From an uncultured Mycoplasmatota bacterium (GTDB lineage: Bacteria > Bacillota_I > Bacilli_A > RF39 > UBA660), in NCBI GenBank assembly GCA_946486465.1, contig CAMLTY010000007.1, positions 1 through 39,682 of the forward strand: a stretch of 39,682 nucleotides of DNA, written 5' to 3'. This document shows positions 707 through 39,634 of the stretch, one piece after another. The number at the start of each line of letters is the position of its first letter. The first letter of the stretch is position 1. The notes under the pieces were generated by a model. The model was not told the origin of the DNA and made no database searches. It saw only the letters and a list, made by a program, of their open reading frames with translations. Position numbers and translations under genes: made by a program.

Positions 707-714
707 CCTCTTTT
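691..714. terminator. Bidirectional intrinsic terminator between the pyrophosphohydrolase and ABC exporter genes
   Basis: An 8-bp stem AAAAGAGG/CCTCTTTT with an 8-nt loop that contains the stop codon of the upstream gene. T-rich sequence follows on both strands. Confidence 0.8.
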
Positions 715-2443
715 AATTTTCACTTTCCGCCATATATAAATTTTGATATTGTTTACACTCCTTTAACAATTCTTTATGAGTACCACTACCAACTAATTTA
801 CCTTTCTCTATTATATGAATAGTATCAGCATCAACGATAGTAGAAAGACGATGAGCAACTATAATGACCGTATGATCTTTTACTAAATCATCAATAGTCC
901 TCTTAATATACTCTTGAGACTCGTTATCAAGAGCACTAGTCGCTTCATCAAAAAGGATTATCTTTGTATTTAATAGAAGAGTTCTAGCAATGGCAAGTCT
1001 TTGTTTTTGTCCCCCTGATAAGTTAATACCGCCTTCACCAATAACAGTATCATATCCTTTAGGAAGACTCATAATATAATCATCTATATAAGCTCTTTTA
1101 CAATACTCTCTCACTTCTTCTAGACTAACATCTTCTTTAACTAATCTAAAATTATCAAGTATTGATAAATTAAATAGAAATGGACTTTGTCTAATAATCG
1201 AAACATTACCTCTTAAAGCATCTTCTGTTAAATCTTTAATATTAATACCATCTATAGTAATACTACCTTTGCTAGCATCAAAATATCTAAGTAGCAAGTT
1301 AAATATAGTACTCTTACCATTACCACTACGTCCTACAATAGCAATCTTCTTGTTAGGGACAATCTCCAAATCAAGACCATTTAAAGTATAATCTTCATCT
1401 TCTTTATATTTAAACTTAACATTATTAAATTTAATAACCCCTTTAGTATTTTCAAGTATTTTCTCTCCATATACTTCATCTTTATATAAATCATTATTTA
1501 ATAGTTCTCCTATTCTTTTTAAAGAAACAGTTACTTTATTAAAACTAACTCCAAAGTCACTAATACTCTCAACTACCTCATCAATTCTCCAGATATAAGA
1601 CTCCATCATTAAAAACACACTTAAACTAATAACCCCATCCAAATAACATTTACCAGTTGTAAAGAGAATTAAAAACTGAATTAAGAAATAAGCTAAATTA
1701 TTAAAGCCATAATACCATCTTTCATATTTTCTTACTCTAGCAGTATGACTATAAAGTTTATCTATAACTTTAGAAATGTTACACTCTATTATTCTAGTAA
1801 TACCAAGTGACTTAATCTCTCTAATTCCTGTAATATTTTCTGTTGCAACTTTTACATAAGAATCACTTTCTTTTTTAATATTCTCTTGACTCTTCTTAAT
1901 TCTAGGAAAAAACTTCATCGAAATAAATCCCATAATAATTGCAAGTAACATAATCTCTAAAAACAATACAAAAGATATTCTAATCGCAATAACAATAACT
2001 ATAATTACAACCACTGCTTTACAAATAAGCCTAACCATTTTAGAAAGTAGTTCCATCACTCTATCAGGATCAGTATATAAACGATTAATAAACTCACCCA
2101 CACCAATATCTTCAAAGGCAACAGCAGGTAACTTATCTATCTTTTTATATAAGTCTTTACTTACATTTTTTGTAAACTTAATCTCAAAATATGTATATAA
2201 AGCATCTCTTGGTATCTGTAAAAAGGTGTAAAAAATAATGTAAATTCCCTCATAAATTGCAAGATAAAAGACAAATGAATTTAAGTCTTTAGCAGTTAAA
2301 GCTTCAACAGCAACACCCCAAAAATATACAGATATTAAAGCCGGTAAATAAGATAATGCTACTAAGATAATATAAAGAATAAGTCTTAATTTATCATCTT
2401 TAATATAGTCCCAAAATATTTTAAAATGTTTTAACTTTTTCAA
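713..2443 (-). CDS. ABC exporter half-transporter (permease fused to ATPase)
   Basis: 576 aa, the normal size of a type IV ABC exporter half-transporter that works as a dimer. The N-terminal 310 or so residues hold about six hydrophobic segments. The C-terminal nucleotide-binding domain has Walker A GRSGNGKST, Q-loop IIRQSP, signature LSGGQKQR, Walker B IILFDEATSALD and H-loop AHRLST, all intact, so it should be an active ATPase. The substrate (lipid, peptide or drug) cannot be read from the sequence. The start is TTG at 2443, set by a strong GGAGGTG site 9 nt upstream. A sigma-A promoter (2611-2639) and a roughly 170-nt leader with a small ORF and a terminator-like hairpin precede it, suggesting control by attenuation. 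Confident as an ABC exporter. Confidence 0.93.
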   Translation of the reverse strand: MKKLKHFKIFWDYIKDDKLRLILYIILVALSYLPALISVYFWGVAVEALTAKDLNSFVFYLAIYEGIYIIFYTFLQIPRDALYTYFEIKFTKNVSKDLYKKIDKLPAVAFEDIGVGEFINRLYTDPDRVMELLSKMVRLICKAVVVIIVIVIAIRISFVLFLEIMLLAIIMGFISMKFFPRIKKSQENIKKESDSYVKVATENITGIREIKSLGITRIIECNISKVIDKLYSHTARVRKYERWYYGFNNLAYFLIQFLILFTTGKCYLDGVISLSVFLMMESYIWRIDEVVESISDFGVSFNKVTVSLKRIGELLNNDLYKDEVYGEKILENTKGVIKFNNVKFKYKEDEDYTLNGLDLEIVPNKKIAIVGRSGNGKSTIFNLLLRYFDASKGSITIDGINIKDLTEDALRGNVSIIRQSPFLFNLSILDNFRLVKEDVSLEEVREYCKRAYIDDYIMSLPKGYDTVIGEGGINLSGGQKQRLAIARTLLLNTKIILFDEATSALDNESQEYIKRTIDDLVKDHTVIIVAHRLSTIVDADTIHIIEKGKLVGSGTHKELLKECKQYQNLYMAESEN

Positions 2444-2467
2444 AAGAATACACCTCCACCAAAAAAG

Positions 2468-2481
2468 CTACTTTACAGTAG
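2468..2481 (-). terminator. Candidate attenuator hairpin in the ABC exporter leader
   Basis: On the minus strand CTACT-GTAA-AGTAG forms a 5-bp stem, and six T residues (2461-2466) follow almost at once, just ahead of the GGAGG site of the exporter. The 5' arm plus flank (2472-2483) is also perfectly complementary to a segment overlapping the leader-peptide stop codon (2520-2534, with a 3-nt bulge). That 12-bp pairing would exclude the hairpin. The stem alone is weak, so confidence is moderate. Confidence 0.5.
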
Positions 2482-2521
2482 TTCCTACAAATATTACATT
2501 AAAAGGATAAGCATTTTTTAA

Positions 2522-2581
2522 CTACCACTGTAAAAATATGTTATAAATAATTTTATTTACACTAGCAACTAAAAGTCTCAT
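2522..2581 (-). CDS. Putative 19-aa leader peptide of the ABC exporter
   Basis: ATG at 2581 to TAG at 2522 encodes MRLLVASVNKIIYNIFLQW. An AAGGAAG site lies about 10 nt upstream, and the ORF sits 30 nt after the -10 of the exporter promoter. Its last codons (TTA CAG TGG TAG) form one arm of an alternative pairing with the terminator-like hairpin downstream, as in ribosome-controlled attenuators of drug-inducible transporters. Translation is not proven; this is inferred from layout. Confidence 0.5.
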   Translation of the reverse strand: MRLLVASVNKIIYNIFLQW

Positions 2582-2610
2582 CCTAATCACTCTTCCTTTC
2601 AAGTGACATA

Positions 2611-2639
2611 ATAATAGCATATTGATACATACTTGTCAA
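2611..2639 (-). promoter_or_regulatory. Sigma-A promoter of the ABC exporter
   Basis: On the minus strand TTGACA, 17 nt, TATTAT: a near-consensus promoter about 170 nt ahead of the exporter start. It is divergent from the promoter at 2657-2685. Confidence 0.8.
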
Positions 2640-2656
2640 ACTATACATATTGTACA

Positions 2657-2685
2657 TTGAAAGAATTGCATTATAGATGTATAAT
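2657..2685 (+). promoter_or_regulatory. Sigma-A promoter of the PASTA protein gene
   Basis: TTGAAA, 17 nt, TATAAT, followed by a GAGGTGAT ribosome binding site 7 nt before the ATG at 2703. Between this and the divergent promoter lies an imperfect palindrome (TATACATATTGTACA, 2642-2656) that could bind a regulator of both. Confidence 0.8.
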
Positions 2686-2702
2686 ATTAACGAGGTGATA
2701 CA

Positions 2703-3536
2703 ATGATTATATGTCCAAACTGCAAAAGAGAAAATGATGAAGATGCTAAATTCTGTAAAAACTGTGGTTATTATTTTTTAGAAGAAAATAATAAAAAAGA
2801 ACATAAAAAGAAAGACAAAGTTAAACACAAAACCAAAACTAAAAGCAAGACGAAAATAAAGAAGGAAAAAGCAAAGGCACCAAGATATAAACAATCAAGT
2901 GATAAACAAAAATCAAGTATCTTTACAAAAATACTTTTACTATTCTTCATTCTATTGTCTATAGGATTATTAGTAATAGCAAGCATCCTAGGATATAACT
3001 ACTACTTAGAAAACAATATAGAAGTACCTAATGTTATAGGTTATTCTTATGAAGAAGCAACGGCTTTACTTGATACTGCAAACCTTAGTTATGAAATGAA
3101 AGAAGAAGAAACTACTAACAAGGAAGAAGTTGGTATAGTTATAAAACAAAGTAAGAATGCGGGTTCTAAGACTCATGAAAATGCAATTATTACTTTAACA
3201 GTAGGAATATTAGATAACCATGTTACAGTTCCTAATGTCGTTGGTATGACTCTAGAAAAAGCAACTAGAACATTAAATAAAAGCGGTGTATCTTACAGAA
3301 TAGAATATAAAGATACTAACGATGAAGAAGATAATACAGTAATAAAACAAAGTATAAAAGCAAATAAAAAAATAGAAAATACAGAAATAGTAACTATTAC
3401 AATTGCGAGAAATAACAATAACGAAACTGACAATAACACTAATAACGATGATGAAACATCTAACGAAGATAAAGAAAATACTACTTCTACTGATGAAAAA
3501 ACAAATAATGAGCAAGAAAAAAATCTACAAAACTAA
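2703..3536 (+). CDS. Membrane-anchored zinc-ribbon protein with two PASTA domains
   Basis: 277 aa. Residues 4-22 form a zinc ribbon (CPNCKRENDEDAKFCKNCG) typical of short N-terminal zinc_ribbon_2 domains. A very Lys-rich linker (about 30-65) follows, then one transmembrane segment (about 75-98, LLLFFILLSIGLLVIASILG). Two PASTA repeats come next, starting VPNVIGYSYEEA and VPNVVGMTLEKA, then an Asn/Glu/Thr-rich low-complexity tail. PASTA domains bind muropeptides or lipid II outside the cell, normally at the end of Ser/Thr kinases or PBPs. Here the cytoplasmic kinase is replaced by a zinc ribbon, so the protein could sense the wall without phosphorylation. The domains are clear; the function is inferred. 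Confidence 0.82.
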   Translation: MIICPNCKRENDEDAKFCKNCGYYFLEENNKKEHKKKDKVKHKTKTKSKTKIKKEKAKAPRYKQSSDKQKSSIFTKILLLFFILLSIGLLVIASILGYNYYLENNIEVPNVIGYSYEEATALLDTANLSYEMKEEETTNKEEVGIVIKQSKNAGSKTHENAIITLTVGILDNHVTVPNVVGMTLEKATRTLNKSGVSYRIEYKDTNDEEDNTVIKQSIKANKKIENTEIVTITIARNNNNETDNNTNNDDETSNEDKENTTSTDEKTNNEQEKNLQN

Positions 3537-3547
3537 GTAGATTTTTT
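3518..3547. terminator. Bidirectional intrinsic terminator
   Basis: An 11-bp stem AAAAAATCTAC/GTAGATTTTTT with an 8-nt loop, A-rich on one side and T-rich on the other. It separates the convergent PASTA gene and the envelope operon. Confidence 0.85.
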
Positions 3548-4496
3548 AATTTAAACTATTACCCTTAACATTTGCAGTTTCTACCTTAACAGTAGTACTT
3601 TTATCAAAACTTTTAGGAAGTCCCTTATTCAACAAAATACTGTCTCTCTTTACATCATAACTAGTATCTAAGCCATTTAAATCAAGAACAACTGGATCTA
3701 CACTCTTTTGATAATCAGCATCATCACTAGGTCTTAGTAAAAATTCACTATTATGAATATCAACATAATTTAATGAATCATTATATCTAGCAAGTCCCTC
3801 TAAAAGGTTATCGGTAAAAATTTTATTTAATCCAGTATCCACTTTAATAACACCTTCACTATAATCTTCTAAATCAGCAGTTTCTGGTATAGCAATAGTA
3901 ACATTAGGCATTATTTGATCACCTACTGCCACTTCAATATCTGAAGGAATTAAAGTTGGTTCTGCTACGCTCTTATCATAAACACCCTTTTGAATATCTC
4001 CTCCAAAAGTTTCTTTCATACCAACAGCAAGTAAATCAGCATGATTATTACCTTTATTATAGTTACCTATTACTTTATAGTCATCACCTTTATAATTAGT
4101 TAATGCTACAAAACATTCTGTTCCATCCTTATTTAATTCGTTTATATCTCTAACTTCAACATCAAGGCCAGTTGACTCCAAAGAACCTTCAACTTGCTTA
4201 ATTTGTTCATCACTAATACCATCATTAACGAGTACTACATTTAATGATGATAAATCATCAGTACTAGTAGTAATAGAATATGGTTCCTCTATTGGTTTTG
4301 GTTCTACAATAGGGCCATCGCTAGAACCGCCTCCCATAATATTACTACATCCAACCCCTAAAGCAGAAACACCTGCTGTAATACCAATAATACCTCCAAT
4401 AACTTTTCTTCTTTTTGCACGTAATCTTTTCATTCTAGCTTCTCTTATCATTTCAGGAGTAGCTCTAAAATTATTAACAACTCTTCTCTCACTCAT
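3546..4496 (-). CDS. Membrane-anchored extracytoplasmic protein, possibly a degenerate amidase fold
   Basis: 316 aa. A basic cytoplasmic N-terminus (RMKRLRAKRRK) precedes a hydrophobic segment (about 33-50) ending in GVGCSN; the Cys lacks the usual Leu at -3, so a lipoprotein anchor is doubtful. The remainder is a soluble alpha/beta domain exposed outside the cell. Phrases such as LNVVLVNDGISDEQIKQVEGSLESTG, HADLLAVGMKETFGG and MPNVTIAIPET recall the strand/helix order of peptidoglycan amidases of the Amidase_3 type. The zinc-binding His/Glu motifs are not evident, so it is at best a non-catalytic relative. It is the last gene of the envelope operon that begins with ezrA. Function unknown. 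Confidence 0.55.
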   Translation of the reverse strand: MSERRVVNNFRATPEMIREARMKRLRAKRRKVIGGIIGITAGVSALGVGCSNIMGGGSSDGPIVEPKPIEEPYSITTSTDDLSSLNVVLVNDGISDEQIKQVEGSLESTGLDVEVRDINELNKDGTECFVALTNYKGDDYKVIGNYNKGNNHADLLAVGMKETFGGDIQKGVYDKSVAEPTLIPSDIEVAVGDQIMPNVTIAIPETADLEDYSEGVIKVDTGLNKIFTDNLLEGLARYNDSLNYVDIHNSEFLLRPSDDADYQKSVDPVVLDLNGLDTSYDVKRDSILLNKGLPKSFDKSTTVKVETANVKGNSLN

Positions 4497-4504
4497 AATA
4501 AAAC

Positions 4505-4846
4505 CTACTTTCTACTAGTATTATTAGCAATAATATTAAGTAATCTAATCATTTCTCCAAGTCCATAAATCATACTGCAAAAAACAAAACTAGCAATCCA
4601 AAATATTAATGTTAATGATAAATTATATTCTGTTTTTGTACAAGTAGCAAATAACTCTGATGTTTCACTACAAGCAGGAAACAAATTGCCAACAAGTACC
4701 CCTACTATAAACAAGAATATAAACAAACATACCGCTAATTGTTGATAGAAGTTATAATTCCTTTTCTTCTGTACTTCCTTACTTATCTTCTTTAACTTAG
4801 GTAAATCTTCTCTTTCTTCATCAATCTCATCAAACAAATCTTTCAT
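4505..4846 (-). CDS. Small two-span membrane protein of unknown function
   Basis: 113 aa. A charged N-terminus (DLFDEIDEEREDLPKLKK) is followed by two hydrophobic segments (about 35-53 and 78-95). The loop between them should be extracytoplasmic and holds two Cys (ACSETSELFATC) that could form a disulphide. Its ATG overlaps the stop of the preceding gene by 4 nt (ATGA), so the two are probably translationally coupled. I do not recognise the family. Confidence 0.6.
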   Translation of the reverse strand: MKDLFDEIDEEREDLPKLKKISKEVQKKRNYNFYQQLAVCLFIFLFIVGVLVGNLFPACSETSELFATCTKTEYNLSLTLIFWIASFVFCSMIYGLGEMIRLLNIIANNTSRK

Positions 4847-5604
4847 TTCAAAGCCTCCTCATCTTTATTCTTTTTAGGTCTACCGCGTCTTTTAACCTCT
4901 TTAGGCTTCTCTTCATTCTTAGTAGTTTCATCTTCTTTAACTTCGTCTACTTTATCTACAGTTTTCTCTTTCTCATGCTCTTTTTCTTTAACAATATCTA
5001 ACTCTTTTCTTTCCACATATTCTTTATATAGATAAATATATCTAACAAACATAAAATGGTATAACGCTTCTAATAAATAAACAACCACATCTTCAAAACT
5101 ATTAACTGATACTAAAGATACTATCAAACTAATAGCAATAATACCAATCAATAAATAATAATACTGTCCATTATTAATCTCTGCTAAAGGACTATCAGAA
5201 AGTTTTAAGTCTTTACCTATAACAGTTCTAGTAAAGAATGAATATCCAAAATATAATGTAATTAACACATTAAAAGCCAAATTTAAAATAGAATCGAAAC
5301 CAAAAGATTGAAAGATTGTAAATAAACTAGCAAAAGTAGTAAGTAAATAAAATGCAAATATAATTACATTCAAATAATCAAAATACTTTTTACCAAACTT
5401 AACTCTAATTAAAATAAAATAGATTAAGCTAACTAAATAAATACTATTATGATTAATAATAGATCTAAATATATCTCCTGCTTCCATATGACTTTGAATA
5501 GCAAAAGACTGTGATAAAATTATAAGAATAACTAAAAGACCAATCAAAATATATGTAATCATACTAGGGCTATCAAAGAAATCTCTTTCCTTACTCTTAT
5601 TCAT
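4843..5604 (-). CDS. Multi-span membrane protein with an AT-hook-like basic tail
   Basis: 253 aa. Residues 15-190 contain about six hydrophobic segments. The last 60 residues are a highly charged cytoplasmic tail (repeated KEKE, VDKVDEVKEDE) that ends in KRRGRPKKNKDE. The RGRPKK core is the AT-hook consensus for minor-groove binding of AT-rich DNA. A membrane protein with such a tail could tether the chromosome, but the motif is short and could simply be basic sequence. It is 239 nt downstream of the pilin-like gene's stop side in the same operon and overlaps the next gene by 4 nt. Confidence 0.6.
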   Translation of the reverse strand: MNKSKERDFFDSPSMITYILIGLLVILIILSQSFAIQSHMEAGDIFRSIINHNSIYLVSLIYFILIRVKFGKKYFDYLNVIIFAFYLLTTFASLFTIFQSFGFDSILNLAFNVLITLYFGYSFFTRTVIGKDLKLSDSPLAEINNGQYYYLLIGIIAISLIVSLVSVNSFEDVVVYLLEALYHFMFVRYIYLYKEYVERKELDIVKEKEHEKEKTVDKVDEVKEDETTKNEEKPKEVKRRGRPKKNKDEEALK

Positions 5605-5670
5605 CTAACATACCTCCTTACACTTACTCCATTATAATTATAGCATAATTTTTAAGAAAAGAACATTAAT

Positions 5671-6294
5671 TTAACTAACTAATGTCCTTTTCCTATAAGC
5701 AGTTTTCTCATCTACATCATAGTTCTTCTTAATCGCTTTAAGACTATTATATTTACCCCCATAATTAGCAGCAACTAATTTAATAAATAACTCTTCTTCA
5801 TAATAACCATCAAGCAAATTCTTACCATTTTTCATTAATCCATACACTTTTACAGTATCAACATTATTACCATTGATTTTATCAAAAGACCAATTACTTA
5901 CTTTATAAATACTATAGTCTTTAGCAGTAACATCTTGATTATAAATTAAATAATCTCCACATTTTAATGTTACTTTTTTATTATCATGAGAAAAAACTAC
6001 TTTAGACTCATACATATCACAGTACTCATCACCAGAGAAATTATTTTTAATTCTTGTTACTAAATTAGTATTAATTAATTCATATAAATAAACAACATTC
6101 TCACTTGTCTCATTATTATAATTAACAGCATTAATACCAACAATCTTAGCATTATATCTAAACACTTGATATCTTTCTTTTTGATTATTGTTAACAACTA
6201 TAAACAAAAGTATCGCACTAAGTATTAAACATGTAACCGCTACTGTTAAAAACTCATATGTTCCCCTTCCATTCTCATTAAATCTTACTTTCAT
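5671..6294 (-). CDS. Pilin-like single-pass membrane protein
   Basis: 207 aa. A short basic N-terminus ending in GRG leads into TYEFLTVAVTCLILSAILLF, a long hydrophobic helix with a Glu near its start. This is the layout of type IV pilin-like or TadE-like proteins, although the peptidase site is not canonical. The external domain has two Cys (EYCDMYESK, TLKCGDYL) and aromatic beta-rich sequence. The ATG lies 9 nt after GGAAAG. The gene begins inside the last codons of ezrA (17-nt overlap), so the two are translated from the same transcript. No secretion ATPase or prepilin peptidase is in the window. Function uncertain. Confidence 0.55.
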   Translation of the reverse strand: MKVRFNENGRGTYEFLTVAVTCLILSAILLFIVVNNNQKERYQVFRYNAKIVGINAVNYNNETSENVVYLYELINTNLVTRIKNNFSGDEYCDMYESKVVFSHDNKKVTLKCGDYLIYNQDVTAKDYSIYKVSNWSFDKINGNNVDTVKVYGLMKNGKNLLDGYYEEELFIKLVAANYGGKYNSLKAIKKNYDVDEKTAYRKRTLVS

Positions 6295-7993
6295 AAGCTT
6301 TAATCTTTCCTTCTATCGTATCATCTACTAATTTAACAGTATCAACGCATAATTTTAAAGCACTATCATAATTACCTTTATAGAATAGGGAACTAGCTCT
6401 ATCAAGGCCATTATTAATATCCTCATGTAAACTTCTATATCTATTACCATAGACAATTAAAGCCTCTGTTAACTTAGCTTTATTTATCATATTTAAAGTT
6501 GTATTATAAAGTTTTAACACTAAATCTCTAGCCGTATCAACTCTAGTATTAAGAGTTTTAATAACAATAGGTTTACGAGATAATTCTTTAACTACCTCTT
6601 CTATCGCTTCATTCGCTTCATTAAGTTCCACAAAATAGTTATCACTTATTATAGGTAGTTTAAACTCTCTCATCTTCTCTTTACATTCTCTTAGTAATTT
6701 ATCTATCTCACCTAACTGTTCTCTCGCTCTTTGTTCATCTTCATACATATTACCAAGACTCTTCAAAGCCACATCTAAAGTTGATTCTGTTTGTTTAAGT
6801 TTTAATGTAAGTTCATCTACTTCTTTAGTTACTAAGGAATAAGGAGTCGCTTTATTCTTAACTCTATCTACTAGATTTTTATATTCATCTTTAATAGAAG
6901 TCAAGTCTTTATTAACTTCATTAATAATATTAACATCTTCCTCATTAAGGTCATACATATTCTTAATATCATCTAACTGGTCATAAATATCACTAACTAC
7001 CTTATCAGTTTTCTTTAACTTCTTAGCAAAATCTCTAATACCTTCTTCATATACTTTTCTTGAAAGTCTCTCTTTCTCAAAATCAACAAAGATACTATCT
7101 AAATAATCAAGAATAGTTTTTAACTCAAACATACAATCTTCAAGATTTAAAACTTTAATTCTATCTAAAATAGTTCCCACATTCTTACGAGACTCTTCTA
7201 AATTATAATCAAGATTTAAATATTCAATAGGATAACCTTTCTCTGTCATATCTTTAGCAGTATCTTCAATCTCTTTAATTCTCTTAGGTATCATCTGTTT
7301 ACACATAAGCATTAAATCAGGAACTTCTTCTACCACTATCTCCATATGTTCTATCATAGTATCCAAAGCTTTAACAATATGTACCACATCGCTATACATA
7401 TTATCATCCATAGCCTTCTCAAACTCTAAGAAACGTTTCTCTATATTTTCAAGTTGTAACTCTATCGCTTCTGCCATCTCTTCATAAAAATTTTTATGGT
7501 CATTATATTCTTTATTTAATGCTCTATACTTAGTCTTAAGTTTACTAATAATACTACGATATTTCTCTTCACTCAAAGTTATCTCTTTTATCTGGTCAAG
7601 TAAATCATCCGCTTGCTCTCTAACTTTATAGACTTCCATCTCGCACTTTGCAATTCTAAATTTAGCCGTCTTATATTCTTTCTTATCTAATAAAGTATCT
7701 AACTCTATAAGCATATCATCTATCTTTGGAATATCAACATTTTTAATAGTATCAAATCTCTCTTCCCACTTTTGATACTTCTCTTCCATCTTTTCATTCT
7801 TAATAATTGGTTCTAACTTAGAAAGTTCTAAAAGCACAGGTGTACTTCCAATTAAGTTTTTCTCTCGCTCTAAATTGTCGTATATATCTTGGTAATACCT
7901 CTTTTGTCTTCTTTTCAAGATAGTGATAATAGTAATTACTAAAATTAAAACTACAATGATAACACAGATTATAAATAAAAGTGTATGTCCCAT
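6278..7993 (-). CDS. ezrA: Septation ring formation regulator EzrA
   Basis: 571 aa from the chosen ATG. One N-terminal transmembrane helix (HTLLFIICVIIVVLILVITIITIL) is followed by a basic stop (KRRQKRYYQ) and about 530 residues of nearly continuous charged coiled coil. This is the spectrin-like architecture and length of EzrA (562 aa in Bacillus subtilis). EzrA binds FtsZ at the membrane, restrains polar Z-rings and supports divisome assembly. The upstream in-frame GTG at 8002 overlaps the ribosome binding site (AGAGGTG); the ATG at 7993, 8 nt after AGAGG, is the better start. It is the first gene of an envelope operon running left. No alternative family fits as well. Confidence 0.9.
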   Translation of the reverse strand: MGHTLLFIICVIIVVLILVITIITILKRRQKRYYQDIYDNLEREKNLIGSTPVLLELSKLEPIIKNEKMEEKYQKWEERFDTIKNVDIPKIDDMLIELDTLLDKKEYKTAKFRIAKCEMEVYKVREQADDLLDQIKEITLSEEKYRSIISKLKTKYRALNKEYNDHKNFYEEMAEAIELQLENIEKRFLEFEKAMDDNMYSDVVHIVKALDTMIEHMEIVVEEVPDLMLMCKQMIPKRIKEIEDTAKDMTEKGYPIEYLNLDYNLEESRKNVGTILDRIKVLNLEDCMFELKTILDYLDSIFVDFEKERLSRKVYEEGIRDFAKKLKKTDKVVSDIYDQLDDIKNMYDLNEEDVNIINEVNKDLTSIKDEYKNLVDRVKNKATPYSLVTKEVDELTLKLKQTESTLDVALKSLGNMYEDEQRAREQLGEIDKLLRECKEKMREFKLPIISDNYFVELNEANEAIEEVVKELSRKPIVIKTLNTRVDTARDLVLKLYNTTLNMINKAKLTEALIVYGNRYRSLHEDINNGLDRASSLFYKGNYDSALKLCVDTVKLVDDTIEGKIKAYESKI

Positions 7994-24381: not shown

Positions 24382-25327
24382 ATTTAAATATACAAGTGAT
24401 AATAAAAGATACCACACCTTAACTTATTATTATAAAGAAAAGTTTAATTCTAAAGTCTGTAAAGTAAGTTTAAATGCTAACTTTACTTGCCCTAATATCG
24501 ATGGAAAAGTCGGGATTGGTGGTTGTATCTATTGTTCTAAATTAGGTAGTGGTGAATATGCAGGAAACCCTAAAGAAGATTTAATAACTCAGTTTGAAAA
24601 AGGAAAAGAAATGATGCAAAGGAAATGGCCTAATGCCAAGTTCATCGCTTACTTTCAAGCGAATACCAATACTTATGCACCTATAGAAAGACTTAAAGAG
24701 TGCTTTGAACCTTTCATAAATAGAGATGATTGTATTGGTCTATCTATCGCTACTAGAAGTGATTCTATCACTGATGAATGTTTAGACTACCTAGAAGATA
24801 TTAGTAAAAGAACTTATCTAATCGTAGAATTAGGATTACAAACTATCCATGAAAAGACAAGTAAACTAATTAATAGATGCTCTAGTCTTGATAACTTTAA
24901 TAAGATGGTCAAAAAATTAAAGATGCGAAATATTAATGTCGTTGTTCATATCATTAATGGCCTCCCCTATGAAACAGAAGATATGATGATTGATACAGTT
25001 AAACATTTAAATGACTTAAATATCGATGGTATAAAAATACATATGCTAGGAGTATTAAAAGACACACCTTTAGAAAAATATTATCAAAAACATAAATTTC
25101 ATATTCTAACCAAAGAAGAATATGTTAATATAGTAGTGAAGCAACTAGAGTATCTTAATCCTAAAATTGTAATACATCGCTTAACAGAAGATCCAAAGCA
25201 AGATGATATAATAGAGCCAACTTGGCTTACTAAAAAGTTTACAATTTTAAATGAAATTGATAAAATAATGAGTACTAGAGATCTCTATCAAGGAGATATG
25301 GTAAAGGAGAAAATGAAAAATGAATAA
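24371..25327 (+). CDS. Radical SAM protein, YtqA/TIGR01212-like
   Basis: 318 aa. The cluster-binding Cys are in CPNIDGKVGIGGCIYC, the longer spacing typical of the TIGR01212 family, followed by the SAM-binding segments AYFQANTNTYAPIERLKE, GLSIATRSDSI, VELGLQTIHEKT and HIINGLPYET. That family is close to Elp3/oxygen-independent coproporphyrinogen oxidases; its function is not settled. The ATG overlaps the patatin gene by 11 nt, with AGGAG 6 nt upstream, so they are co-translated. Confident in the family. Confidence 0.9.
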   Translation: MENKFKYTSDNKRYHTLTYYYKEKFNSKVCKVSLNANFTCPNIDGKVGIGGCIYCSKLGSGEYAGNPKEDLITQFEKGKEMMQRKWPNAKFIAYFQANTNTYAPIERLKECFEPFINRDDCIGLSIATRSDSITDECLDYLEDISKRTYLIVELGLQTIHEKTSKLINRCSSLDNFNKMVKKLKMRNINVVVHIINGLPYETEDMMIDTVKHLNDLNIDGIKIHMLGVLKDTPLEKYYQKHKFHILTKEEYVNIVVKQLEYLNPKIVIHRLTEDPKQDDIIEPTWLTKKFTILNEIDKIMSTRDLYQGDMVKEKMKNE

Positions 25328-26856: not shown

Positions 26857-27570
26857 ATGGATAAACATGTTAGAATTATAACTGTAACTGCCCTTTCCTT
26901 ACTTGGAGTTCTTTGTATTGCCTCAGGAGTAATGTATAGTTCTTTACAGGCAAATAATGTAGAAGAAAAAGTATTAGTAGTAGTTGAACAAAAACAAGTA
27001 AGTAAAGAAAGTGATATTGACATAAAATTAAAAAATTTAACAATTGAAGTTAACACTCCTCTAAGTGTCAAAATAATTGACTACTTAGATAGTGCTGTCT
27101 CAGATGAAGTTCTAGCAAACTTAAAACTAGATACAAGTGAAGTTAACGTTACTGAACCAGGAACATATAATTACACAGTTACTTATAAAAAGAAGACATA
27201 TCAAGGTATTATTATTGTAAAAGAAAAAGAAGTAACAAATAATACTTTACAAAGCATAACTTTAAAAACTGTAAACATAAATGTAGGTACTGCTCTACCA
27301 ACTGATGTTAGTAACTATGTAATAGAACCCCTTACTGATGATATAAAAGCCACTATGTTAATTGACCTTAGTAAAGTTAATGTCAATACTGCAGGTAATT
27401 ATCAGTACACAATTACTTATAATAATAGCATTTATACCGGTACTATAGTAGTAACAGAAACACAACCTACATTATCAACTAATATAGGAGATACTCCTCA
27501 AGAAGAACCAACCCAAACACCACCGACAACTACTACAACAGAAGAACAAACTAATACTCAAGTTAATTAA
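26857..27570 (+). CDS. Anchored surface protein with two Ig-like repeats
   Basis: 237 aa from the ATG at 26857, 9 nt after AAAGG; the ATG at 26848 overlaps that site. A signal anchor (about 8-28, ITVTALSLLGVLCIASGVMYSS) is followed by two repeats of about 70 residues, each ending in a 'PGTYNYTVTY..K.Y.G.I.V' strand pattern (TEPGTYNYTVTYKKKTYQG and NTAGNYQYTITYNNSIYTG). This is as in bacterial Ig-like (Big/DUF5011-type) domains. The C-terminus is Thr/Pro/Gln-rich low complexity without a sorting signal. It probably decorates the membrane surface. Monocistronic. Confidence 0.7.
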   Translation: MDKHVRIITVTALSLLGVLCIASGVMYSSLQANNVEEKVLVVVEQKQVSKESDIDIKLKNLTIEVNTPLSVKIIDYLDSAVSDEVLANLKLDTSEVNVTEPGTYNYTVTYKKKTYQGIIIVKEKEVTNNTLQSITLKTVNINVGTALPTDVSNYVIEPLTDDIKATMLIDLSKVNVNTAGNYQYTITYNNSIYTGTIVVTETQPTLSTNIGDTPQEEPTQTPPTTTTTEEQTNTQVN

Positions 27571-27594
27571 AACTTCCACCAAGGGAAGTTTTTT
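27569..27594. terminator. Intrinsic terminator between the Ig-like gene and corA
   Basis: AAAACTTCC/GGAAGTTTT (9-bp stem, 6-nt loop) followed by T on plus; weaker T tract on minus. Confidence 0.88.
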
Positions 27595-28537
27595 ATAACA
27601 TATTTTTCTTTTTTAAGATAAGAGCAACTATCAAAGATAAGAGAAGTGATAATAAAAGTAACAAAACAAAAGCATAAGGATTATCAGCAAACTTACCAAA
27701 TGTAACATTCATACCCATAAAAGATGCTACCATTGTAGGTATAGAAAATACAATCGTAATACCTGCTAAGAACTTCATAATAGTATTAAGATTATTAGAT
27801 ATAATAGTAGCAACTGTATCTGTAGTACTAGATAAAATACCTCTATATAAATCAGCCATTTCTATCGCTTGATTATTTTCAATAATTGCATCTTCTAATA
27901 AGTCTTCATCCTCTTCATAAAGTTCTATTACATTACCTTTTAATATTTTATCAAGAACAACTCCATTACTCTTTAAAGCTGTAATTATATAAGTTAAACT
28001 ATTTTCAATAGAAAGTAAATTTAAAAGTTCTTGGTTCTTAGTAGCATTAAGTATATTAGACTCTGCTACTTCTATTTTACTATCTATTTCTCTTAACATC
28101 TTTAAATATAATAAAGCAAGTTTATAAATCATCTGAATAATAAATCTACTTTTCTTATAAGTATAAAACTCTTTAATCTTTCCCTTAGTAAACTCATCAA
28201 TAATACTATACTTCTGTAAACAAACTGTCACAATATAATCATTTCTAACAACTAAAATACCTATAGGTAAAGTTGTAATAGTCTTAACATTATTCTTAGT
28301 CTCATAAACAGGAACATCTAAAAGAAGCATCTTAACTCCATCTTCCTCATCAATACGAGGTTTCTCATCATCATCTATTATACTCATAATAAAGTTTTTC
28401 TTAATACCAAGAGCATTAACTACTTCATCTATCTCTACCTCTGTAGGATTAACTAAATTAACCCAGCTTCCTACTTCATATTTATCTATTCTACTAAACT
28501 CTCCACTAGTAATATCAGTATTATATATCTTTAGCAC
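27593..28537 (-). CDS. corA: CorA-type magnesium transporter
   Basis: 314 aa. The C-terminus has the two transmembrane helices of CorA with the GMN signature in FMGMNVTFG between them, preceded by the long stalk helix (AEVAESNILNAT type region). The N-terminal cytoplasmic domain is standard. It works as a pentamer carrying Mg2+ and related divalent ions. The start is GTG at 28537, fixed by AAAGGAGTGAT. It lies 24 nt after the HExxH protein gene and is the last gene of that operon. Ion choice among CorA members varies. Confidence 0.93.
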   Translation of the reverse strand: MLKIYNTDITSGEFSRIDKYEVGSWVNLVNPTEVEIDEVVNALGIKKNFIMSIIDDDEKPRIDEEDGVKMLLLDVPVYETKNNVKTITTLPIGILVVRNDYIVTVCLQKYSIIDEFTKGKIKEFYTYKKSRFIIQMIYKLALLYLKMLREIDSKIEVAESNILNATKNQELLNLLSIENSLTYIITALKSNGVVLDKILKGNVIELYEEDEDLLEDAIIENNQAIEMADLYRGILSSTTDTVATIISNNLNTIMKFLAGITIVFSIPTMVASFMGMNVTFGKFADNPYAFVLLLLLSLLLSLIVALILKKKNML

Positions 28538-33282: not shown

Positions 33283-33381
33283 GAATTTTTAAAATTCAAG
33301 AAATTTTTATTCTGAATTTTGTAAATTCCCCTAGCGAATTTACAAAATTGGCTCAAAAAACACCTCGAATTTACAAAATTC
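33283..33381. repeat. Cluster of four GAATTTT-type 15-nt palindromic elements
   Basis: GAATTTTTAAAATTC (33283-33297), GAATTTTGTAAATTC (33314-33328), GAATTTACAAAATTG (33336-33350) and GAATTTACAAAATTC (33367-33381). The second and fourth are exact reverse complements, and the third differs by one base. The second and third can form a 14-bp hairpin with a CCCTAGC loop. The region has no gene; it is the upstream region of the adhesin-sortase operon. Confidence 0.75.
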
Positions 33382-33386
33382 ATAGT

Positions 33387-33415
33387 TTGCATCTTTTTTT
33401 AGTCCATGCTAGAGT
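33387..33415 (+). promoter_or_regulatory. Tentative promoter of the adhesin-sortase operon
   Basis: TTGCAT, 17 nt, TAGAGT, about 31 nt before the ATG at 33447 and directly after the palindrome cluster. The hexamers are only partly consensus. Confidence 0.4.
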
Positions 33416-33446
33416 AAGTCTCGTTAAGAAAAAAGGAGGAAAATTT

Positions 33447-34946
33447 ATGAAAAAAATATTATTATTCTTAACTCTAAGTTTTATTTATTTAATAAGTTCT
33501 ACAACTATTGTAAATGCAAGTACGGATTCTTTCTATGAAGCAGAATATATTGATAATATCTATATGGTTAGATATGATAAAACTACCAAAACTAAATATT
33601 ATCAAAAAGCAAGAGTATATCGAAGAACAAGTGATGGAAAACTTGCATACTGTTTACAACCTTTCACTAAGTTTAATCCTAATAATAACTCTTATGAAAC
33701 AGTATCATCCTTACCAGACATTAATAATGAAACACTAGAAAGATTAAGAGATATTATAGGATTTGGTTATGGATATAGTGGACATTCAAACGATTTAAAA
33801 TGGTATGCAGTTACCCAATTAATGATATGGCAAGCAGTGGAACCTAATAATGAGTTTTATTTCACAGATACCTTAAATGGAAATAAAATAACAACTTATG
33901 ATGATGAAATTAATATTATTAATAGCACTATAAATAGCAGTTATATCATGCCAAGCTTTAATAATCAAACATTTTACGGAATAGTAGGAAAACCATTAAC
34001 TTTTAAAGATACTAATGATATTGTAAAATTTTTTGCAAGACCAAATAATGATGTTGATATAAATAACAACCTAGTTACAGTTACTAAAAAGACCCCAGGT
34101 TGTTATGAAGAAACATTTACAAGATATCATAATTATAGTAGTTCTATTCTATTTTACTATAATCCAAATAGTCAACATCTAGCAACCATAGGAAATCCTA
34201 ATAATAGAGTAGCAAAAGTAAGATATTGTTTTAATGAATTAAAATTAAATATTAAAAAGGTTGATAAAGATACAGGAACAACAGATAGTATTGGTGAAGC
34301 ATCTCTAAAAGATACAGTTTTTACTCTATATAATAAGAACATGGAAAAAATCACAGATATATCTTTAGATGAAAATATGGAAGCCTCTTTATCAAGCAAT
34401 GATTTTGATTTAGATTATGGTACTTATTATCTAAAAGAAACTAAGACAGGAACAGGATATCTTCCTAATGATAAAGTATATGAAATAAACTTTACAGGTG
34501 ATAATCCTACAGTAGATTTAACTATTGAAAATAAAGTTATTGAAAAAGAAGTAACTATTAAAAAGTTATATGGAGATGGTTTACTAATGCAAACAGAACC
34601 TAATATTACTTTTGAAATCTATGACAAAGATAATAATCTAGTTAAAAGTATCACCACAGATCAAAATGGGCTTGCAGAGATTACTCTTCCTTATGGTCAT
34701 TATAAAATAGTACAATCTAACACTACCGAAGGTTATACTAAAATAGAACCATTTGAAATATTTATTAATGATATAGATAAAGATTATTATTACACAATAA
34801 ATGATTATAAAGAAAAAGATAAAGAAGAAGTACCTAAAGAAACAATTTCTATAGAAGTACCAAATACAAGTACTGAAGATAACAACTACCACTTATTTAG
34901 TTTAATATTACCTACATACTTAATTGTTAAGAAAAAGTTTAGTTAG
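33447..34946 (+). CDS. Cell-wall adhesin with thioester and CnaB domains
   Basis: 499 aa from the ATG at 33447 (AAAGGAGG 7 nt upstream; longer frames to 33348 have no site). Signal peptide 1-24 (ILLFLTLSFIYLISSTTIVNA). The thioester domain has the Cys in LAYCLQPF (Cys69) and the Gln in AVTQLMIWQAV (Gln124), the pair that forms the reactive internal thioester of TQXA-type adhesins. Two CnaB-like beta domains follow (LNIKKVDKDTG...YYLKETKTGTGY and VTIKKLYGDG...ITLPYGHYKIVQ). The C-terminus has VPNTS (471-475), a hydrophobic stretch and KKKFS: a sorting signal of the LPxTG type. It is linked to the sortase gene by a 23-nt overlap. Confidence 0.9.
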   Translation: MKKILLFLTLSFIYLISSTTIVNASTDSFYEAEYIDNIYMVRYDKTTKTKYYQKARVYRRTSDGKLAYCLQPFTKFNPNNNSYETVSSLPDINNETLERLRDIIGFGYGYSGHSNDLKWYAVTQLMIWQAVEPNNEFYFTDTLNGNKITTYDDEINIINSTINSSYIMPSFNNQTFYGIVGKPLTFKDTNDIVKFFARPNNDVDINNNLVTVTKKTPGCYEETFTRYHNYSSSILFYYNPNSQHLATIGNPNNRVAKVRYCFNELKLNIKKVDKDTGTTDSIGEASLKDTVFTLYNKNMEKITDISLDENMEASLSSNDFDLDYGTYYLKETKTGTGYLPNDKVYEINFTGDNPTVDLTIENKVIEKEVTIKKLYGDGLLMQTEPNITFEIYDKDNNLVKSITTDQNGLAEITLPYGHYKIVQSNTTEGYTKIEPFEIFINDIDKDYYYTINDYKEKDKEEVPKETISIEVPNTSTEDNNYHLFSLILPTYLIVKKKFS

Positions 34947-35466
34947 TATCTTACTACTAACAGTATACTTAGGTAGTTGTCTATTAATATATAATAGTGA
35001 AAAAGATATTAAAAGTATTAGTACTGCAAACTTAGAAAGAAATACTAATACTAGTTATATTAGTACAGTAAATAAAGATGCAAATGATGAAATAATTGGC
35101 ACTTTAACAATAGATAAATTAAACTTATCTAAAAAAATCTATAATATTAACAGTTCTCATAATAATGTAGAAGAAAATGTTACTATATTAAATGATGATA
35201 TGAATCTAATAGTCTTAGCAGCTCATTCTGGTCCTGGATATATCGCTTTCTTCAATGATTTAGATAAACTAGAATTAAATGATACTGTTAATTTAACCTA
35301 TAATAATAAGAAACTAGTATACAAAGTAACTAACATAGAAGAACAACCTAAAGATGGAACTATAGAAATAAATAAAACTGACAAACAAAGATTAATACTA
35401 ACTACTTGTAGTAAAAAAGATAAAACAAAACAGTTAGTAGTAATAACAAAAAAAATAGATGCCTAA
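34924..35466 (+). CDS. Sortase
   Basis: 180 aa. One N-terminal signal anchor (about 5-22) is followed by the sortase beta-barrel with catalytic His101 in LAAHSGPG and Cys162 in LILTTCSKKD. The Arg that normally follows the Cys (as in R-L-V-V) is Gln170 (KQLVV), with Lys169 before it, so the triad is unusual. The class looks like D/E by size. The start is TTG at 34924, the first codon after an in-frame stop, with no clear ribosome site; translation is probably coupled to the adhesin gene. It should attach the adjacent VPNTS protein to the wall. Confidence 0.85.
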   Translation: MLRKSLVSILLLTVYLGSCLLIYNSEKDIKSISTANLERNTNTSYISTVNKDANDEIIGTLTIDKLNLSKKIYNINSSHNNVEENVTILNDDMNLIVLAAHSGPGYIAFFNDLDKLELNDTVNLTYNNKKLVYKVTNIEEQPKDGTIEINKTDKQRLILTTCSKKDKTKQLVVITKKIDA

Positions 35467-35480
35467 GCACCTATTTTTTT
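35448..35480. terminator. Bidirectional terminator between the sortase and clpB genes
   Basis: AAAAAAATAG and CTATTTTTTT pair over about 10 bp, with a TGC-CTAA-GCA tip beyond one A/C mismatch; the sortase stop lies in the loop. Confidence 0.85.
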
Positions 35481-37570
35481 ATTACTAACTGATTATCTTT
35501 AACATCAAAAGTAACAGTTTCTCCATACTTAATAGTACCTTTAACAAGTTCATGAGCAAGTAAACTCTCAACAGTTTTACTAACTTCACGTTTCAAAGGT
35601 CTAGCCCCATAATTAACATCATATCCTTCTTCAACTAAATAATCTTTAGCTTTGTCTGTTAATTTAATATGAATATCATTCATAGATAGACGGTTCTCTA
35701 TATCAGATATAATCTTATCAAGAATTTGATAGATTACATCTTTAGTAAGAGGTTTAAAGACAATAATCTCATCTACACGGTTAATAAATTCAGGTCTAAA
35801 GTGACTTCTTACTTCATCCATTACTTTACTAGTATCTCCATCTAATATATATTCACTACCAAGGTTAGATGTCATAATGATAATAGTGTTTTTAAAGTCA
35901 ACTGTTCTACCATTAGAATCGGTTATTCTACCGTCATCTAATATTTGAAGTAAAAGATTTAATACTTCAGGATGAGCTTTCTCTATCTCATCAAATAAAA
36001 CGATACTATATGGATTACGTCTAACTGCCTCAGTTAACTGTCCCCCTTCTTCATAACCAACATAACCTGGAGGAGAACCAATTAAACATGATACACTAAA
36101 CTTCTCCATATATTCACTCATATCAATACGAACCATATGTTTCTCATCATCAAAAAGTTCATAAGCAAGAGTTCTTGCTACTTCTGTTTTACCAACTCCA
36201 GTAGGTCCTAAAAAGATGAATGAACCAATAGGTCTATTAGGGTCTTTAATACCACTACGTGACTTAATTATCGCTTCACTAACTAAATGCAAGGCTTCAT
36301 CTTGACCCATAACACGTTTTTTCATACTATTCTCAAGATTAAGAAGTTTCTCTTTCTCACTACTAACTAACTTACTTAAAGGGATATTAGTCATCTTAGA
36401 AATAACACCAGCGATATCTTCTTCTGTAACATTATCACTTAAAAGTTTCATTTTATCTTTATTTTTTAACTCTTCAAGTTCTTTCTCTAACTTAGGAATA
36501 GTACCATGTTGAAGTTTAGCAGCCTTTTCTAAGTCATACTTATTTTCAGCTTGCTCTAACTCAAAACGAGCCTTCTCAATCTCTTTCTTCTTAGATTGTA
36601 TTTTATCATTAAGACTTTTCTCTTCTTCCCACGCCTCTTTATATTCCTTCTCTTTAGCTTTCAACTCTCCTAACTCTTTATCTATCTCATCTTTACGTTT
36701 CATAGATAACTGGTCTTTCTCTTTCTTAATCGCTTGTCTTTCAATTTCAAGTCTCATAATCTTACGAGTTAAAGAATCAAGTGCATTAGGAACAGAGTCC
36801 ATTTGTACACGAATAGTAGCACATGCTTCATCTACTAAATCTATCGCTTTATCAGGTAAATATCTATCAGTAATATAACGATTAGAAAGTGTTGCCGCTG
36901 CCACTAAAGCTTTATCATGAATAGTAACTCCATGATGTATTTCAAACTTTTCTTTAAGACCACGTAATATTGTAATAGTATCTTCTACACTAGGTTCTTT
37001 AACAATAATCTTTTGAAAACGTCTCTCTAAAGCCCCATCTTTCTCAATATACTTACGATATTCATTTAAAGTAGTAGCACCTATTACATGAATCTCCCCA
37101 CGAGCAAGCATTGGTTTTAAGATATTAGATGTATCCATCGCTCCCTCTGTATTACCAGTACCTACAATCATATGAATCTCATCAATAAACATAATAATAG
37201 AACCTTCGGATTTTTTAATTTCATTTAATACTTTCTTAAGTCTCTCTTCAAACTCACCACGGTATTTAGCACCTGCAACTAAACTTGCCATATCAAGTTC
37301 CCATATAGTTTTATTTTTAAGACTAGCAGGAACATCTCCACGTTCTATACGAAGAGCAAGTCCTTCAACAATAGCAGTTTTACCAACACCAGGTTCACCA
37401 ATTAAAACAGGGTTATTCTTAGTACGACGAGAAAGTACCCTTGTTATACTACGGATCTCTTCATCACGACCAATAACAGGATCAATCTTACCTGCTTTAA
37501 CCGCTTCATTTATATTACGACCATATTTTTCTAAAACATTCTCATTTTCTTCATTTGGATTTTGATACAT
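35471..37570 (-). CDS. clpB: ATP-dependent chaperone ClpB, N-domain-less form
   Basis: 699 aa. Two AAA+ modules: first Walker [15 protein letters not shown], Walker [14 protein letters not shown] and arginine finger region GALERRFQ; then a coiled-coil middle domain (about 260-390); then second Walker [15 protein letters not shown], Walker [12 protein letters not shown], and the pore loop [13 protein letters not shown]. The usual 150-residue N domain is absent (ClpB is about 860 aa), as in mollicutes and the ClpB short form. With DnaK it dissolves aggregates. The M domain and lack of a ClpP-binding IGF loop argue for ClpB over ClpC. ATG after GGAGAGAT. Regulated by CIRCE/HrcA. Confidence 0.96.
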
Positions 37571-37687: not shown

Positions 37688-37722
37688 CTTATAAAGCTCA
37701 TTGAAATCTCAAATAGATAATA

Positions 37723-39570
37723 TTACAGGCTAGGACTCATCACAAGACGGAACGAGTTGCAGTTGCCATAGGCAACGCTAGAACCAGTGCCAGCGACACT
37801 TTGGAACACACCTGCGCCATTAACAAAAAAGGTACCACCATGCAATATCCAAGGGTTTGTATCATTTGTCATTGACTGAGAATCTCCATACCATCCAGTT
37901 GTTTCTGATAAAGCGTGTGATAAACATTCCCCTCCATTACATGCATTACTTACTGTACTTCCTGTGTACTTATTATAATATTTTGTATCTAATGTCAATG
38001 GACTACTAAACCCACTACTTCCTATCATATCGTTATAATTTCCCATTACATATTCCCAAGATCCTCCTGACATATCATAGATTCCGTAGATTGTTCCTGA
38101 TGTACTTGCTCCTACTCCTTTTCCTGATACACCACTCTCATCTCTTGTATTATCATCATATGTATATAGACACCCATAATTTTCACCAATACTTGTACTT
38201 GGCGCTCCACTACTACATCCTGTTATATAACTATCTGATTTATTTTGATATATTTCTTTATTAGCACCTAAAAAATTTACATTACCTAATTTCCCGTAAG
38301 CACTTTGTGATAAGTAAGCAACTGCCGCCCATTCATCGTTTTTCATAGTGTGTGAATTCATACTTGTACTAAATCCATACCTATTACCTTCACTACTAAC
38401 TTTAAGCCCTACATTATAAATATTACTTACATTTATATTTCTCCAACTACTTACATTTGGTTTTATAATTGGATCAAGAGTTGTATTATTTATACTACTC
38501 TGTTCTGTATTACTTGTCTCAAACTTTCCTACCCATATACCAGAAAGTTCTTGATCACCAAAGGTAAAAGCATCAGGTGTATACCAATTCTTTGGTTCTT
38601 CCGTATTCAAGTATCTTGCCGTTCCTTTTTCATTTACCTCAGGTCCAACAAATTTTACATCTATTTCACCTGGTAATTCTTTAGTTGGCTCCGTATTCAA
38701 ATATACACCTCTTTTACCATAATAATTTGTTCCATCTCCTGCAATTGTATAAGAATATCTTGGTATCCATACCCACATAGTTTCAATATCATCCATATTT
38801 ACAACTGTTCCAACTGGAGCATTTAAATAACTATCTCTTGTATCAGCACTTACAGTAACAGCATTTGCCCATATTCCTCTACCATAATTGTACCAACCAT
38901 TATCTTTATCTGTTTTTACCCAGTTATAACCGTCATGTTTTACGGCTATCATATTACTATCCATTTCAGGTTCATTTACTTCTTCATTATCTTGAATAAA
39001 AGTATCCTCTGCAACTTGTTGAGTTGCAAATACTTTCAACTTATCTAAAAATACTTTACCCATAACATCATTACCAGCATTTATATTAAGCCAAACTCTT
39101 AATTCACAATCTATATTCTCACTAGCTTTAATTACTCCATGATATATTACAGGAGATTCTGATAACGTTCCAGTGTAAGCTTTATCTCCTACTTTTACCT
39201 CATATCTTATATCTTTACTATCTAATAACTGACAAGGACTACCATCTGTTGTTTGACATGAACTAATTAAATCTTCATCATCTACAAGTGATAGTGAATA
39301 ATATAAATCTATTTTACTTTTATTTTTCAATGTAAATTTATAAGGACTACTAGCTTTCCCATCATCATCATAAGTAGGTATAGCATTAACTAACTTTATA
39401 CCTTCACTAGCACTTTCATCTAGCTCTAAATCAATAGTATCTACTAAAATATTAACATTTTTATTTCCTTGGAATGAAGTAGTTAACCAAGCATAAGATA
39501 ACCCTATTAATAATGCTATTAATATTAGTAGTACAATAACTATTATTATATTCTTTCTTTTATTCTTCAC
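37723..39570 (-). CDS. Anchored surface protein with TasA-like and FGE/C-type-lectin-fold domains; candidate DGR target
   Basis: 615 aa from the GTG at 39570 (AAGGAG 9 nt upstream; the ATG at 39588 overlaps that site). A signal anchor (about 8-30, ending LSYAWL) and a TasA/camelysin-like beta domain (ILVDTIDLELDESASEG, FTLKNKSKIDLYYSLSL) resemble the gene at 20288. A middle section with WVWIPRYSYTI and a C-terminal formylglycine-generating-enzyme/lectin fold follow (IYGIYDMSGGSWEYVMGNY, then WILHGGTFFVNGAGVFQ... and SFRLVMSP). The last 42 codons shift to GC-rich NNC codons. The protein faces outside; its tip is probably a binding surface. Confidence 0.85.
   Translation of the reverse strand: MKNKRKNIIIVIVLLILIALLIGLSYAWLTTSFQGNKNVNILVDTIDLELDESASEGIKLVNAIPTYDDDGKASSPYKFTLKNKSKIDLYYSLSLVDDEDLISSCQTTDGSPCQLLDSKDIRYEVKVGDKAYTGTLSESPVIYHGVIKASENIDCELRVWLNINAGNDVMGKVFLDKLKVFATQQVAEDTFIQDNEEVNEPEMDSNMIAVKHDGYNWVKTDKDNGWYNYGRGIWANAVTVSADTRDSYLNAPVGTVVNMDDIETMWVWIPRYSYTIAGDGTNYYGKRGVYLNTEPTKELPGEIDVKFVGPEVNEKGTARYLNTEEPKNWYTPDAFTFGDQELSGIWVGKFETSNTEQSSINNTTLDPIIKPNVSSWRNINVSNIYNVGLKVSSEGNRYGFSTSMNSHTMKNDEWAAVAYLSQSAYGKLGNVNFLGANKEIYQNKSDSYITGCSSGAPSTSIGENYGCLYTYDDNTRDESGVSGKGVGASTSGTIYGIYDMSGGSWEYVMGNYNDMIGSSGFSSPLTLDTKYYNKYTGSTVSNACNGGECLSHALSETTGWYGDSQSMTNDTNPWILHGGTFFVNGAGVFQSVAGTGSSVAYGNCNSFRLVMSPSL
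37726..37851 (-). other. Candidate DGR variable region (VR)
   Basis: The final 42 codons of the surface gene (residues about 574-615). G+C is about 50% here against about 30% around it. Codons ending in C (ACC, GGC, TTC, GTC, AGC, GCC, TGC, AAC) dominate, as expected when AAC codons of a template repeat are copied with random changes at A. The segment ends in SFRLVMSP, the conserved end of lectin-fold variable regions. No template repeat copy was found in the window. Confidence 0.65.
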
Positions 39571-39634
39571 AAAATACCACTCCTTCATTACAATAGCTTT
39601 TCACTTTTTACTTTTCCATTTTTTTACATTAGAG

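Follow-up and report, generated by a model that had tools for sequence, protein, structure and literature searches.

The window, that is, the whole stretch of DNA analysed here (39,682 nucleotides), is the entire contig C7 of a 1.40-Mb metagenome-assembled genome (MAG), designated G000, which is 86.9% complete and 3.7% contaminated. On its reverse strand lies a gene for a surface-protein-like product with a hydrophobic N-terminal segment, a shared N-terminal module and a C-terminal domain that has at its end a putative variable region (VR) of a diversity-generating retroelement (DGR). The gene was identified as an open reading frame with full-length paralogues and with homologues in the genus, and its neighbour from its reading frame and a comparison of neighbourhoods.

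35471..37570, reverse strand: Clp ATPase-like gene (clpB, named by eye)
37723..39588, reverse strand: surface-protein-like target gene, 621 aa
37835..37843, reverse strand: 5' anchor of the VR, GCATGGTGG, with three substitutions relative to the form usual in most VRs and templates compared, GCGCGGCGG
37756..37834, reverse strand: VR body, 79 nt, in frame, adenine fraction 0.18; no matching template found
37736..37755, reverse strand: IMH-like 3' segment, TCGTTCCGTCTTGTGATGAG, with two C-to-T changes relative to the usual start, TCGTTCCGCCTCGTGATG
37716..37732, reverse strand: place of the stem-loop in template-matched VRs, here TAGCCTGTAATATTATC, with no inverted repeat found

The last 42 codons of the gene (37726-37851) have a G+C content of 0.500, a GC3 of 0.476 and C at a fraction of 0.310 of third positions, against 0.315, 0.147 and 0.033 in the remainder of the gene. 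The contig has 33 ORFs of at least 150 amino acids, and the 9,642 windows of 42 codons drawn from these without the gene itself all stay below each of the three values, with maxima of 0.437, 0.405 and 0.262. The break to about 50% G+C that the first-pass annotation had described is thus real and exceeds all of these windows, whereas its statement that most codons here end in C was mistaken, the count being 13 of 42 (31%). The fold proposed for this domain, that of the formylglycine-generating enzyme and C-type lectins, is weakly supported by matches to PF03781 in two paralogues (E 0.0068 for that on contig C51 and 0.08 for that on C67) and in four of seven aligned homologues (best E 0.0093), all of them below the curated cut-off, and the window protein itself had no Pfam match at E<=0.1. 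A PDB search with the target protein found no match, an AlphaFold model had a mean pLDDT of 35 and was too poor to use, and so the searches of Pfam, NCBIfam and PDB together with the model gave no firm answer on the fold.

The N-terminal module, a hydrophobic segment ending in SYAWL followed by about 170 residues, has 20 matches in G000 (the window gene and 19 other places), 16 of which lie outside the full-length target family. To judge by eye, 33348-35466 of the window may encode a long, secreted protein whose tail (VPNTS) is of the sortase type, with a sortase-like gene after it.

The 3' flank of the window VR is common to DGR templates. The flanks carry more mismatches than those of any other of the 21 VRs compared (3/9 and 2/18, that is, five substitutions), and the stem-loop TAGYCC-GTAA-GGRCTA, which follows VRs with a matching template (one of them in a form with a 3-nt loop), is absent. 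As had been noted from the sequence, the window contains neither a reverse transcriptase (RT; PF00078 at E<=0.001) nor, with two mismatches allowed, another copy of the 3' segment, and when the DNA of the whole genome was searched with the window VR, the 3' end alone recurred elsewhere.

A retroelement cassette on a second contig

Full-length paralogues of the window protein are encoded on contigs C67 (78% identity), C51 (78%) and C5 (53%) of the same MAG, and homologues at E<=1e-40 occur in 27 of the 35 genomes of the genus, G000 included. On C51 (locus L007) the paralogue of 624 aa is followed in the same direction by three template units, the accessory variability determinant (Avd; 118 aa) and the RT (354 aa). 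The best PDB match of the RT (phmmer) is 8ub7 (E 1.9e-45), which we take to be the RT of the BPP-1 DGR; it also matches PF00078 and phrog_1423, reverse transcriptase (E 3.9e-113). With NCBIfam NF033474 the Avd scores 80.5 bits, just above the cut-off of 80, and it also matches PF22296 (E 3.7e-22) and phrog_3206, 'Avd protein of DGR' (E 9.7e-27). Compared with template 3, the VR of the C51 target is changed at 15 of 31 adenines and at none of 45 other bases, and it is followed by the stem-loop TAGCCC-GTAA-GGGCTA, with 6 bp and a GTAA loop; those described for phage-related DGRs, which it resembles without equalling them, have 7-10 bp and GRNA loops (PMC3240598). The C51 locus is a complete DGR, with RT, Avd, VR, templates and adenine-only differences.

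The suggestion that the window gene ends in a DGR-type variable region whose cassette lies outside the window is accordingly upheld through its paralogue: a 78% identical protein is a DGR target, and RT, Avd and three templates accompany it in the same MAG. Adenine-directed homing, the process invoked for the composition break, is evident in the C51 VR; the window VR, with no matching template, no stem-loop and five flank substitutions, gives no such sign of being rewritten. The genome-wide search that had been recommended likewise succeeded in part, in that it recovered the DGR-type RT and the templates on C51, while a near-copy of the window VR was lacking among the 64 templates described below. 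The second RT of G000, on C8, is group II intron-like, its 293.8 bits falling short of the cut-off of 300.

A near copy of the cassette in a related genome, G008, is 98.96% identical to that of C51 over 6.4 kb (L007, about 130-6550, against L123). In 3.5 kb of alignment the 76-nt VR holds 15 substitutions and a 3-nt gap, whereas the remainder of the target gene and template 3 have one substitution each. As the cassettes are about 99% identical and their differences are concentrated in the VR, the VR is the hypervariable site. C51 is 99% identical to G008 and C67 98.4% identical to G029, whereas for the window region the corresponding values are 91% and 94%. The cassette being more similar than the chromosome, either C51 was recently transferred between species or it was wrongly binned, and the assemblies do not tell horizontal transfer from wrong binning.

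Contig C67 carries another target, and its end overlaps the end of C51 by 55 bases; in G029 a C67-type target is followed by an Rpn-like gene in the same order. The C67 VR has no stem-loop and no template, is identical in G029 and is nearly so in G021, and to judge from these comparisons it is a fixed variant. Rpn/PD-(D/E)XK transposase-like genes were observed 3' of target genes (L007, 6495-7427; L019, 3616-3969). They score just under the family cut-offs, the one on C5 was named by eye, and they may mobilise targets.

Template arrays and stop-bearing units

Nine cassettes of the genus were assembled with the array and at least the target end, and they contain 3-26 units each: three in G000 and G008, five to six in G010, G013, G028, G016 and G002, 11 in G032 and 26 in G015. 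The units are mostly 310-400 bases apart; in each, a leader is combined with a template body (73-91 nt) and with a conserved spacer that probably forms a stem. The templates analysed number 64 (59 distinct) and come from ten cassettes, one of which (G004) is partial; units with a body shorter than 72 nt, here called null units, had been set apart beforehand. All 64 are open and in frame, against 13.6% that are free of stops after shuffling. One further unit of G015 (L125:8066), which is 79 nt long and in frame by eye, did not fit the 5' anchor pattern and stands outside the 64. A GGGARAAACTT-like leader recurs before many template units in L125 (3400-12500) and in other arrays, as seen by eye. 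A sigma-70 promoter before each unit was considered and rejected, with 4 of 67 units against 3.5 expected.

The spacer stem, CTATGATAT/ATATCATAG, encloses a small hairpin, and across 57 spacers 94% and 100% of cells are paired. These are 57 of 61 after the prior exclusion of G008, an odd spacer of G032 and three of G028 having been omitted. Compensatory change is seen in two pairs, and cells changed on both sides number 10 against 1.3 in shuffled alignments. The covariation signal appears modest, as it is confined to only two pairs, a number that 139 of 500 shuffles reach.

In seven pairings of a VR with its own array, which include the near-identical cassettes of G000 and G008, mismatches fall on 82 of 188 template adenines and on 2 of 353 other bases, with one 3-nt gap; the next-best templates from other cassettes, as listed for each VR, have at least five non-adenine mismatches. 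Null units left uncounted, the members used were the third of three (twice, in the near-identical cassettes), the 19th of 25, the fifth of five, the second of four, the first of five and the first of four. These assignments show, at the level of the assemblies compared, that VRs of different species derive from different array members. Two VRs at contig ends (G002:7878 and G004b:3335) were assigned as such from their 3' ends, their open frames running off the contig, and in G002 only the target end is assembled. In G010 (L126, contig C1) the RT lies in two pieces, at 24848-25237 and 27143-27826 of the record, about 1.9 kb apart and one of them with an internal stop; this cassette may no longer work, and may have stopped recently. 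In G029 (L139, contig C59, 4935-6299) a post-VR stretch lies near a remnant of the C-terminal part of an RT, as if the cassette between them had been deleted; it is probably a dead DGR with an orphaned VR.

The match to a template goes with the stem-loop. Among 44 VRs, those with the GTAA stem-loop match a template in nine cases and fail to do so in five, and those without it in one and 29 cases (Fisher p 2.5e-5, which overstates the independence of the data, since the VRs are related to one another and cassette VRs make up eight of the nine that have both stem-loop and match). The sole match without a GTAA stem-loop is that of G032, which has the 3-nt loop. As five VRs with an intact stem-loop are also without a match among the templates compared, a missing match by itself proves little. 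The idea that templates are a memory of past VRs was unsupported: the most adenine-biased template pairs gave p values of 0.002-0.01, uncorrected, and the differences between units 1 and 3 of G000 (11 of 31 adenines, 5 of 45 other bases) count against it.

In seven of the nine arrays the first unit is a null unit of 66-70 nt with 9-18% adenine (17-41% in templates), and all seven carry a stop in the target frame, as against none of the 64 templates. The VR body of G028 is identical to its own null unit over 68 nt, and that of G032 differs from its own by one T in a run of T and by one A-to-G change; the two overwritten targets are truncated to 592 and 593 aa. The cassette of G010, 94% identical to that of G028 over 6.3 kb, has the same VR surroundings with a VR from another unit. 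Because the null unit is poor in adenine, few copying errors would be expected of it, and it looks like an OFF state; the assemblies, on which this reading is built, suggest an OFF template alongside template choice.

It is also possible, if somewhat doubtful, that the null unit is a regulatory or structural RNA and that its two copies in VRs arose by accidental recombination between similar flanks. The VR-type 3' end is found in six of the seven null units; the null units listed (six of the seven) have a different spacer and, by eye, a terminator-like hairpin; and in G000 the null slot, recognised by its spacer, is occupied by an ordinary template, with the same sequence there in G008, all of which would suit such an RNA. 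The stops in every null unit, the low adenine content, which would be expected for faithful copying, the presence of two of nine cassettes in the null state and the A-to-G change between the G032 unit and its copy speak for the OFF template instead, though ordinary recombination could have delivered the overwriting sequence.

Fate of the window variable region

The mechanism that these arrays bring to mind would run as follows. Each unit would give rise to its own template RNA, one of which would be copied by RT and Avd with errors at adenines, and the cDNA would replace the VR beside the GTAA-loop stem-loop. The choice of unit would decide how long the variable segment is and which framework it has, the adenine errors would alter individual residues, and the adenine-poor unit, copied nearly without error, would turn the target gene off. 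The window gene would be a remote copy of the target that was once diversified by such a DGR, and its VR would have lost stem-loop and template and would now be under ordinary mutation.

None of the 64 templates matches the window VR. The best-scoring one differs at 21 of 32 adenines and 15 of 47 non-adenines with three gaps, and the fewest non-adenine mismatches with any template are 11, with six gaps. With the MAG about 87% complete, a fourth unit could be missing. The window VR is best read as a retired remote target, and for the joint reading, namely that it was made by a DGR and is now retired, and that the arrays provide template choice and an OFF template, we would put the probability at roughly 0.78.

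The neighbourhood of the window gene bears on whether targets at this site can be active. A target gene or fragment lies beside clpB in six other genomes (G012, G034, G027 and G033, with short frames in G022 and G007), and that of G034 keeps its stem-loop and nearly fits a template of the G010 array (mismatches at 12 of 25 adenines and 3 of 54 other bases), so that the site can evidently host a live target. In genomes with arrays, six remote targets that could be parsed (G015:C8, G032:C34, G032:C44, G002:C51, G028:C40 and G004:C59) have no template match, and action in trans on remote targets thus lacks within-genome support; a parsable C-terminus was available in 19 of 40 remote loci and in four of the six at the clpB site.

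The window VR might alternatively have been acquired by gene conversion from another target instead of by local reverse transcription, as the gene is closer to its own C51 paralogue (79.9% nucleotide identity) than to targets at the same site elsewhere (68.5-76%); its VR is, however, unlike the present VRs of C51 and C67 in length and bases, and we consider this route unlikely. Somewhat more improbable is that the window VR is still live as a remote target, served in trans by RT and Avd from a template that other strains carry or that the assembly of this genome has missed. Its 79-nt body is in frame, poor in adenine and rich in C like other VRs, the G034 target at the clpB site has both stem-loop and near match, and remote or incomplete DGR loci have been described as diversifying, with action in trans explored (PMC10907252, in its available parts); yet the missing stem-loop, the five flank substitutions and the lack of a match among 64 templates speak against it. 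That the segment is merely the G+C-rich end of an ordinary conserved domain, unconnected with DGRs, can be set aside as highly implausible: no such segment is visible, by eye, at the end of the C5 paralogue of this genome, so the domain exists outside DGRs too, but the 3' flank is shared with DGR templates, the reading is contradicted for C51, whose 78% identical protein is a DGR target, and the segment is the variable part between near-identical cassettes, with no invariant column among homologues. The window gene, read as a retired copy, would illustrate a possible fate of remote targets, in which the stem-loop is lost and a variant becomes fixed.

Relation to known systems and distribution

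In the usual description of a DGR, a single template supplies one VR or a few. The BPP-1 DGR (bRT, Avd, one template repeat, or TR, and the VR of mtd) resembles the present one in its RT and Avd families, its adenine-directed transfer, its IMH-type 3' segment, a stem-loop of similar form after the VR and the spacer beside the template (PMC3240598, PMC12875486). Its 3' stem-loop is needed for efficient homing (PMC3240598) and is elsewhere called important and not strictly required, and its spacer primes the cDNA (PMC12875486). It differs in that the accessible portions of these papers describe a single TR, whereas here up to 26 units each have a spacer, with an adenine-poor stop unit in most arrays, and in that the target here is chromosomal and surface-protein-like. 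In Treponema denticola there are likewise several targets per genome, and leftover targets without RT or template, comparable to the retired window gene, have been found; the multiple TRs reported there, as far as the available text goes, are variants among isolates or within the metagenome of one person and form no tandem array per cassette (PMC4891356). The MetaCSST survey counted 216 of 271 multi-VR DGRs with one TR, hence 55 with more, and one with six unique TRs; its available sections describe no ordered array with a spacer for each unit, no assignment of VRs to members and no null template (PMC6642488). Multi-TR DGRs and remote targets are thus known, and a tandem template array with per-unit spacers or a stop-bearing template was not found in the literature covered, which left aside most subscription papers and all preprints and was available in part.

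In the pilE/pilS type of antigenic variation one expressed surface gene is altered by a choice among many silent copies. The arrays differ from it in that RT, Avd and adenine errors would add new sequence with each copy. If the present reading is true, the array joins two strategies kept apart so far, cassette switching and targeted hypermutation, DGRs gain an OFF state, and template choice becomes directly testable by sequencing. The broadest form of this view is one for which we see about even odds: the DGR would be a template-choice switch in which up to 26 units with their own spacers rewrite one receptor-like surface protein in different frameworks and lengths, the adenine-poor stop unit serves as a low-error, reversible OFF, and remote copies drop out and become fixed.

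The RT occurs at E<=1e-70 in 34 of 291 genomes of the family sample, G000 included, and a search of GTDB genomes gave 12 loci in Bacilli, Tenericutes or MAGs, two of them in Candidatus Onthousia. A phage origin was considered and rejected, since none of the 156 matching phage records reaches 60% identity and no close relative was found in viral_contigs. Of 23 RT loci outside the genus (at least one contig being counted twice), seven (G108, G256, G287, G140, G118, G314 and L153) have a shared repeat in two copies, as a single VR with a single template would give, and most of the others have no clear repeat; this weakly suggests that a single template may be the older state. A second genus also has arrays, with 11 template-like units in G198 (L216) and three in G294 (L217), where four adenines are the sole differences between the VR and one unit; these arrays lie 3' of the RT, whereas those of the present genus lie 5' of it.
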